From: Hominenteromicrobium mulieris
Lineage (GTDB): Bacteria > Bacillota > Clostridia > Oscillospirales > Acutalibacteraceae
Reading direction: 5' to 3'
Length of the DNA stretch: 64,000 nt
NCBI GenBank assembly: GCA_021029595.1
Contig: JAJJOY010000009.1
Coordinates: 55,246 to 119,245, forward strand
The translations under genes were made by a program, and so were the position numbers. The notes beneath the pieces are model-generated. The model saw only the letters and a list, made by a program, of their open reading frames with translations. It did no database searches and had not been told where the DNA came from. Shown piece by piece: positions 51,990 to 52,789 of this stretch (position 1 is the first letter of the stretch; every line of letters begins with the position of its first letter).

Positions 51990-52064
51990 CCTTTCCCGCC
52001 GACTTCGCCGCTTTATTCATAAATTTTTATAAGTCTTACAAAATGTGGGATTCGTGAAAATCTT

Positions 52065-52412
52065 TTAGGCTTTCGGTTCTTTGGCGGTGTTGATGGAAGA
52101 AATCAGCATTCTTCGGATAGTGCCGCATAAGGTATACAGCTCCCGCGCCGCCTCTCTGCCCAAAATATCGGATTTCACAAATATCTCTATCCAATACTCC
52201 GTTTCATAACACTCTTTGAGCGCGATTTGCAGCTTTGCAATGAAGTCCGCTTTTCCGTGCGCATAGTTCGCTTCCCGAATATTCGCACCGATGGAAGTTG
52301 CGGAGCGCTCAAGCTGATTAACGATAGACCGATGCCCGTGGATCGTTTCCGTTAACTTTATCGCCTTGACCGCAAAGTCCGTCGATAGATCGCGCAATTT
52401 GGATTCTGACAC
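52065..52412 (-). CDS. Four-helix-bundle protein (23S rRNA intervening-sequence/bAvd type)
   Basis: A 115-aa all-helical protein. FAVKAIKLTETIHGHRSIVN, QLERSATSIGANIREANYAH and KLQIALKECYETEYWIEIF match the family first seen in 23S rRNA intervening sequences and as accessory proteins of diversity-generating retroelements. Here it is a solo chromosomal gene with no rRNA or reverse transcriptase nearby. GTG 52412 is preferred because GGAAGG lies eight bases upstream; an ATG at 52445 has no ribosome site. Helix-bundle pentamers of this family bind nucleic acid. It abuts the hairpin element at 52501-52672. Confidence 0.82.
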   Translation of the reverse strand: MSESKLRDLSTDFAVKAIKLTETIHGHRSIVNQLERSATSIGANIREANYAHGKADFIAKLQIALKECYETEYWIEIFVKSDILGREAARELYTLCGTIRRMLISSINTAKEPKA

Positions 52413-52500
52413 GCTATCACCTTCCTTTTTAGGAAAGTATAGCATAACTTTAGCAATGAGAAATATATTTAAAGGAAATTAGAAATTTTCAGAAGTTTTT

Positions 52501-52672
52501 TAGTGAAATATTTTGCTGATGCAAAATGTGAAATAATGCTAACGCATTGTGAAATTTGATGCCAGCATCAAGTGAAATGAAATAAATCCACGCACGCCCG
52601 CAGGCATTTCACACGCCATAGGCGTATTTCACGTGCGAAGCACATTTCACAAATCCGCAAGGATTTATTTCG
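52501..52672. repeat. Mini-hairpin array with GTGAAAT/ATTTCAC separators and central polarity switch
   Basis: GTGAAAT occurs at 52503, 52528, 52549 and 52572; its complement ATTTCAC occurs at 52606, 52626 and 52644. Between them lie ATTTTGC/GCAAAAT, AATGC/GCATT, TTGATGC/GCATCAA, GCC/GGC, ACGCC/GGCGT, GTGC/GCAC and AAATCC/GGATTT, all with loops of 2-4 nt. GAAATAAATCC (52579) is also complementary to GGATTTATTTC (52661). Confidence 0.85.
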
Positions 52673-52675
52673 TTG

Positions 52676-52712
52676 AAAAAGAGACCTGACACATCGTGTC
52701 AGGTCTCTTTTT
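52676..52712. terminator. Terminator of tRNA-Gly
   Basis: A perfect 17-bp stem: AAAAAGAGACCTGACAC pairs with GTGTCAGGTCTCTTTTT around ATC. Confidence 0.92.
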
Positions 52713-52713
52713 C

Positions 52714-52789
52714 TGGAGCGGACGACGAGGCTCGAACTCGCTACCTCCACCTTGGCAAGGTGGCGCTCTACCAGATGAGCTACGTCCGC
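52714..52789 (-). tRNA. tRNA-Gly (GCC)
   Basis: A 76-nt cloverleaf on the minus strand with encoded CCA. The acceptor stem GCGGACG/CGTCCGC and the anticodon arm CCACC-TTGCCAA-GGTGG give anticodon GCC. It has its own consensus promoter and terminator. Confidence 0.97.

Follow-up and report, generated by a model that had tools for sequence, protein, structure and literature searches.

Here, we describe an array of heptamers and mini-hairpins at the 3' end of a tRNA-Gly gene of Hominenteromicrobium mulieris that, together with a terminator palindrome and a gene of the PF05635 four-helix-bundle family, probably constitutes one small mobile element of the intervening sequence (IVS) kind, in a variant placed at tRNA 3' ends; this judgement covers the mechanism proposed below as well. 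The window, i.e., the whole stretch of DNA that was analysed, spans 64,000 nucleotides, and the array in it is part of a larger ensemble comprising the palindrome, the tRNA-Gly gene and the protein gene. We read the element as transposase-less and as occurring in gut Clostridia in a variant which targets tRNA 3' ends and often comes with an unrelated coupled downstream gene. Its features are the following.

52503..52671, no strand assigned: the whole heptamer and mini-hairpin array (sequence)
Between the heptamer units: mini-hairpins ATTTTGC-TGAT-GCAAAAT, AATGC-TAAC-GCATT, TTGATGC-CA-GCATCAA, ACGCC-TAT-GGCGT and GTGC-GAA-GCAC
After the last ATTTCAC unit: mini-hairpin AAATCC-GCAA-GGATTT
52661..52671, minus strand: word X, GAAATAAATCC (sequence)
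52651..52656, minus strand: word X', GGATTT, which closes a local hairpin with X (sequence; Gut-1 consensus pairing)
52579..52589, minus strand: word X'', GGATTTATTTC, at the array centre, a second possible partner of X (sequence)
52601..52675, minus strand: first Gut-1 match (81 bits), the X hairpin and the GTGAAAT-spaced hairpins (Rfam covariance model)
52501..52583, plus strand: second Gut-1 match (51.8 bits), the mirrored half on the opposite strand (Rfam covariance model)
52065..52445, minus strand: PF05635/TIGR02436 four-helix-bundle protein, 126 aa as listed (Pfam/TIGR match)
52436..52444, minus strand: putative extended -10 box, TGCTATACT (TATACT at 52436-52441), read by eye between the array and the likely GTG start
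52675..52713, no strand assigned: perfect 18-bp palindromic terminator, GAAAAAGAGACCTGACAC/GTGTCAGGTCTCTTTTTC, starting directly at the tRNA-Gly CCA
52714..52789, minus strand: tRNA-Gly (GCC), whose CCA end abuts the element (ARAGORN; the same tRNA stands at the empty site in genomes G002 and G006)

A sequence-only reading of this stretch had described four GTGAAAT units on the left and three ATTTCAC units on the right with a flip of polarity between them, and the units lie as it said (starts at 52503, 52528, 52549 and 52572, and at 52606, 52626 and 52644). Of the seven perfect hairpins that it counted, six have stems of 4-7 bp, but in the central one (GCC-CGCA-GGC) only 3 bp form the stem. 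It was also right that a word near the centre matches one at the end: GAAATAAATCC at 52579-52589 is the exact reverse complement of GGATTTATTTC at 52661-52671. CRISPR arrays and plain tandem repeats, which it had set aside, were rejected on the sequence here too, the repeat direction flipping and the spacers being palindromes. The array is not a product of chance, since even three exact separators occurred in 0 of 2000 mononucleotide shuffles of the 400 nt around it, and the folding z-scores were -8.9 on the plus strand and -10.2 on the minus strand, for stretches in which the 18-bp terminator palindrome was included. When the minus strand is folded at minimum energy, GTGAAAT pairs with ATTTCAC. 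Along that strand the order runs tRNA-Gly CCA, terminator palindrome, X/X' hairpin, three GTGAAAT units, X'', four ATTTCAC units and PF05635 gene; the linked gene, the tRNA 3' end and the conserved three-copy word X/X'/X'' had all been overlooked.

The protein gene is the only match in this genome to PF05635, the '23S rRNA intervening sequence protein' family (E = 1.8e-23, 83.2 bits, cut-off 33.8). Its start is probably the GTG at 52412, giving 115 aa, since homologues mostly begin with M(A/S)ESKL; 2rld is a sequence relative of known structure. PADLOC returned no match of the protein to a known defence protein, and the unit in the window encodes neither a recombinase nor a reverse transcriptase. 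The genome has one reverse transcriptase frame (607 aa), located on another contig, its reverse transcriptase matches at E <= 0.001 occur only on contig C18, and none lies beside the PF05635 gene of the window. That gene is also without a coupled downstream gene (locus L011). Separately, four proteins (P0019, P0021, P0023 and P0061) combine an N-terminal part nearly identical to that of the window protein with a clearly divergent C-terminal part, for which recombination between family members and assembly chimeras are candidate readings.

Evidence for mobility comes from copies within the genome and from the comparison of occupied and empty sites. Ten Gut-1 matches fall at eight sites of this genome, with four of the matches above the gathering score, and a genome-wide search for separator chains, of the sort that the earlier reading had suggested, found GTGAAAT-(8-24)-GTGAAAT 13 times and the reversed control pattern 0 times. 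A tRNA or tmRNA gene (Gly, Glu, tmRNA, Tyr, Gln and Leu) immediately precedes six of the eight sites; of the other two, one follows a similar terminator without a tRNA and one has neither. Seven of the eight lack a PF05635 gene. The suggested comparison of insertion sites was likewise productive: two genomes of the same genus, G002 and G006, lack the terminator palindrome, the array and the gene. Both keep the order zinc-ribbon gene, tRNA-Gly, MinD-like gene, ferredoxin and POR, and between the CCA and MinD they carry unrelated short hairpins, with array and gene absent. In G005 the tRNA and the zinc-ribbon gene are retained and the array is absent there, and the remaining three genomes of the genus gave no syntenic match to the site. 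The insertion thus defined measures about 0.7 kb directly after the tRNA-Gly CCA, with its 3' junction somewhere about 52000-52064. The expectation that relatives would contain further chains held in part: the six other genomes of the genus, two of which contain other PF05635 genes, are all without GTGAAAT chains, but relatives with close proteins do carry arrays with conserved separators. Overall, the sequence-only reading is partly supported; the mobile palindromic element among its options is backed by the eight genomic sites, the conserved separators and the occupied/empty comparison. Elsewhere, a search for empty sites in the genus of G022 returned little beyond the tRNA itself and no usable flanks; in G022 itself (L185, 16100-17150) two GTGAAAT arrays follow one another; the first is immediately followed by an ORF, and the interval between the two holds no PF05635 match. 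G036 (loci L188-L190) has 48 GTGAAAT chain matches but a single, partial match to PF05635, and copies without the gene may have spread there in a burst.

We then consider the relatives closest to the window protein, namely the best 80 of at least 569 loci from GTDB species genomes plus one viral contig (81 loci, sampled by protein). An array, defined as at least five separators within 400 nt, lies upstream of the gene in 77 of the 81, while at least three separators within 400 nt downstream were seen in none; the four exceptions are two loci cut by a contig end (L110, L117) and two without an array (L114, L156). In the 260 nt ahead of the first separator, 54 of the 81 loci have a tRNA on the same strand and 0 have one on the opposite strand; the array tRNAs belong to 15 kinds. 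These loci show that the unit is found after a wide variety of tRNA genes and in a single orientation. A blind detector ignorant of GTGAAAT called an array just upstream in 65 of 81 loci and made 16 calls elsewhere in 704 kb, four of which (L126, L130, L136 and L159) are the upstream array overlapping the protein match by 6-7 nt; on shuffled sequence, which keeps base composition only, it made 0 calls in 906 kb. Gut-1 matches on the plus strand were obtained for 12 of the 14 loci submitted, mostly from animal-gut MAGs, whose sources include deer, goat, sheep, yak and buffalo.

The palindromic terminator at 52675-52713 is probably the 5' end of the element. Across the 81 close loci, CCAGAAAA stands directly at the tRNA end for 38 of 56 array tRNAs versus 1 of 44 other tRNAs, and behind that single non-array tRNA a degenerate array comes next. 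Three sites of the present genome (L006, L007 and L009) share one common terminator hairpin, differing by a loop base and one T. The idea that a native tRNA terminator served as target is weakened, because the palindrome travels with the array and the terminators at empty sites are unrelated to it. Target-site duplication is not supported either: of 69 loci whose start could be parsed, only 4 have a direct repeat of at least 17 nt of the pre-insertion sequence on the downstream side. One locus, L087, repeats the 3' half of the terminator and the element start (19 nt exact) just past the four-helix-bundle gene, which would fit either another unit or a duplicated target behind the gene.

Base pairing within the arrays is conserved while the letters change. 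At the outer five positions of distinct mini-hairpins standing in the same place, 76-94% are paired within a locus versus 33-48% across loci; in this comparison the stems are shown to vary yet stay complementary. Word X itself falls into families (AAATC.., TCGCC, TTGCC, ACGCC and TCGTT). Parsing of X, X' and X'' succeeded in 63 of 82 arrays, and the outer five letters of X' and X'' are identical in 56 of those 63, versus 4 of 2398 pairs with other arm families. A control with similar arms pooled had given 955 of 3278; pooling made it uninformative and it was redone by arm family. Our comparison thereby shows that, in the parsed arrays, X stays complementary both to the neighbouring X' and to the central X'', so that it could pair with one or the other, never with both.

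To place the family more broadly, we sampled 70 PF05635 genes of the same order from 28 of 60 genomes (70 of 71 matches, the one below the cut-off being left out). Within 500 nt upstream, a tRNA or tmRNA lies on the same strand in 29 of the 70 and on the opposite strand in 0, with 0 and 0 downstream; at 500-1500 nt upstream the counts are 4 and 1. The 41 genes without a tRNA within 500 nt include 7 whose available upstream sequence is shorter than about 500 nt. A tandem heptamer or hairpin array accompanies 50 of the 70 genes versus 8 of 320 control windows, the shuffles behind this test and the tRNA test keeping base composition only; the 20 genes that fail both blind tests show degenerate arrays by eye in many cases. 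A first count of inverted repeats across the two flanks was weak and noisy (27 of 70 versus 54 of 320 control pairs). The separators differ within the order (GTTATA, TGATAT, CGATAT, RTGATG, GTGAAG, TGAATT, GTTATG and others), and their distribution was followed on a tree of 35 proteins, drawn from 8 of the 81 close loci, labelled GTGAAA by hand, and from 27 of the 30 loci for which a separator word had been obtained blindly, the other 3 words belonging to no class. On this tree, nine separator classes need 9 changes (minimum 8, shuffled mean 22.9, 0 of 200 shuffles as low), although the words were merged into classes by hand before the tree was built and near-copies add to the clustering. The GTGAAA, TGATAT and CGATAT classes take two changes each. 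Separator classes mix host families, GTTATA and GTGAAG being examples, and the tree shows that heptamer and protein clade remain together across host families.

These observations bear on the nature of Gut-1 (RF01706), the gathering score of which is 50. Both array halves exceed it, at 81 bits (minus strand) and 51.8 bits (plus strand), and in the Gut-1 consensus X is paired with X' while the UGAAAU words are mostly unpaired; Gut-1 is one half of the element's array. The structured RNA that had been proposed as a further option for the array therefore gains a named family; the array, however, is bracketed by a terminator and what is likely the promoter of the following gene. It is unlikely that Gut-1 is a free-standing small non-coding RNA gene with the mirrored half and the protein gene as incidental neighbours. 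Such a reading would account for the gathering-score matches on both strands and for the seven gene-less sites of this genome, and it agrees with the table of Weinberg 2010, where Gut-1 is entered with RNA 'Y', cis-regulatory 'n' and human gut only. However, 77 of the 81 close loci (a protein-sampled set in which gene-less arrays are uncounted) have the array ahead of the gene, a terminator comes before the array and a -10 box often behind it, and the separator class tracks the protein. For the -10 box, an exact TATAAT between the last ATTTCAC and the gene occurs in 36 of 66 arrays versus 4.05 in shuffled sequence, and with one mismatch allowed in 56 of 66 versus 37, the shuffle preserving base composition only.

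We regard as quite unlikely the possibility that the array is an operator or attenuator by which the four-helix-bundle protein controls its own operon. The location of the array just upstream of a likely promoter, the tracking of heptamer and protein, and the second genes coupled through ATGA are what one would expect of such a control region, but at the seven other array sites of this genome there is no PF05635 gene, terminator palindrome, array and gene are all missing from the empty sites, and insertion at tRNA ends would be left unexplained.

The second genes are diverse. In 56 of the 81 close loci, an ORF of at least 50 aa begins within 60 nt of the four-helix-bundle stop, 31 of them with a junction of exactly ATGA (8 of 67 in the wider set). 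The 56 ORFs form 48 clusters, and a Pfam scan of 42 of them matched 31 families in all, including GNAT, NUDIX, HAD, MntP, SfsA, a pyrophosphatase, an immunity family and several DUFs. Behind successive ORFs of some loci (L095 at 1581, 4283, 5039 and 6380; L097, L101, L107 and L113) we noticed a conserved tail of about 165 nt (type 1), so that cassette-like units stand in tandem, and in some of these the separators belong to a different family and no four-helix-bundle gene was seen; another type of tail, rich in T, stands behind the cargo in L103, L109, L115 and L157. In the 14 loci submitted to Rfam, nothing in the cargo tails reached the gathering score. Where units stand in tandem and their different ORFs each run into a similar tail, as with the four type-1 tails in L095, they resemble integron-like gene cassettes, in which the arrays or the cargo tails would be recombination sites. 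We consider this very unlikely, as type-1 tails occur in 5 of the 81 close loci and, by reading, no such tail was seen behind the window gene. Finally, REP/BIME-like palindromes spread by a RAYT (Y1) transposase would also leave dispersed palindromic copies with a constant foot sequence, but this extremely improbable reading was rejected because Y1_Tnp (PF01797) has no match in the genome, whereas the same search was positive in 5 of 14 control genomes.

Beyond the order, heptamers were again found beside PF05635 genes. Our plasmid sample comprised 11 of 36 matching records (cyanobacteria, Treponema and Chloroflexota), picked by taxon before the DNA was inspected. Tandem heptamers adjoin the gene in 9 of the 11 versus 5 of 87 control windows, and words recur inverted across it in 8 of 11 versus 21 of 87 control pairs; these heptamers are presumably the STRR of the literature. 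In five of the cyanobacterial or Chloroflexota plasmid loci (L240, L242, L243, L245 and L247), the gene sits amid defence-like genes (helicase/methylase, DISARM and BREX names, CRISPR). A phylum-wide sample of 28 new loci out of 47 matches contained 0 hairpin arrays and 0 upstream tRNAs. A first tandem test was positive in 14 of the 28 versus 24 of 279 controls; a stricter test near the gene found period 7 in 7 of 28 versus 0 of 56 control pairs, and periods 5, 6, 8, 9 and 10 in neither. With shorter flanks, inverted words across the gene appeared in 12 of 28 versus 2 of 56 control pairs. Three loci of two genomes (L264, L268 and L279) carry the PF05635 gene inside 23S rRNA, in sense direction. 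In L270 (1229-2003), a PF05635 gene splits the RNase P class A RNA gene, also in sense direction, stretching the match to 775 nt. All four have heptamer runs on both sides by eye, which remain below both tandem thresholds (T7 0-3; period-7 score 15/18 with a threshold of 16, other periods 7-12), and their inverted words number 11, 1, 1 and 7.

Several known systems resemble the element. According to published articles, ORFs of 23S rRNA IVSs encode S23-family proteins (PMC4990558, PMC10053308), RNase III excision is a feature of these IVSs (PMC4990558), a Xanthomonas relative of the PF05635 protein is a toroidal homopentamer (PMC4990558, PMC10053308), and PF05635 resembles Avd of diversity-generating retroelements (PMC10053308). 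Like the element described here, 23S rRNA IVSs combine a PF05635 ORF with inverted ends able to form a long stem, lie in or at a structured RNA gene and are sporadic. They differ in that the IVS is inside the 23S rRNA gene whereas the element of the window is at a tRNA-Gly 3' end, and in that the inverted repeats of classical IVSs flank the ORF whereas both halves are upstream here (across-gene count 0, L011). Additionally, the window element has hairpin-spaced heptamers, its own terminator and likely its own promoter, and many of its relatives have unrelated coupled downstream genes. Gut-1, listed as free-standing and from the human gut, here makes up one side of a mirrored array that is linked to a protein gene and is also found in animal-gut MAGs. 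STRR heptamers of cyanobacteria share the seven-letter unit, and most cyanobacterial plasmid PF05635 genes read adjoin such repeats, but STRR run head-to-tail whereas the array of the window is hairpin-spaced (T7 = 1 upstream and 0 downstream, L011). STRR also occur in rnpB and in tRNA-Leu introns. With Avd there is a family likeness, but the window gene has no adjoining reverse transcriptase. Group IIC introns sit behind terminator hairpins, a position like that of our element; the unit in the window, however, lacks a reverse transcriptase, and the terminator seems to be part of the element.

How such an element might move can be outlined from its parts. The PF05635 protein may bind the heptamers, and these would be easiest for it to locate in a single-stranded array. 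The left GTGAAAT units would pair with the right ATTTCAC units, with the mini-hairpins protruding as side arms, and X might switch partner between X' and X''. The folded end may then be held beside a structured RNA gene, at its 3' end, and be joined there by an enzyme acting in trans, either coupled to replication or by reverse transcription as in diversity-generating retroelements. Because the putative -10 box lies behind the array and would thereby place the array outside the gene's own transcript, action as folded DNA appears favoured. By bringing along its own terminator, the element would make the insertion harmless to the tRNA, and gene-less copies would move in trans.

A wider proposal, which we hold tentatively and think somewhat more apt to fail than to stand in full, is that PF05635 proteins are the recognition proteins of bacteria-wide transposase-less mobile elements, each clade having its own heptamer and homing to structured RNA genes (tRNA, tmRNA, RNase P RNA and 23S rRNA). 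If so, 23S IVSs, cyanobacterial STRR and the Gut-1 'RNA' would be three faces of one kind of element, and those of gut Clostridia would carry swappable cargo. Among the matches listed from open-licence PMC articles, none links four-helix-bundle or IVP genes to heptamers, tRNA ends or Gut-1. S23/IVP proteins are said to have no known function (PMC4990558), and intergenic heptamer repeats were noted in cyanobacteria and sulfur bacteria, where a protein that binds them was no more than a guess (PMC4679880). A protein clade tied to one heptamer joins S23/IVP proteins, heptamer repeats and the orphan RNA Gut-1 in one testable question, namely whether such a protein binds the heptamer of its clade and assists its movement. 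If it does, these families would represent a system that recognises words in nucleic acids, with many protein-word pairs occurring in nature, by which small genes are spread behind tRNA genes.
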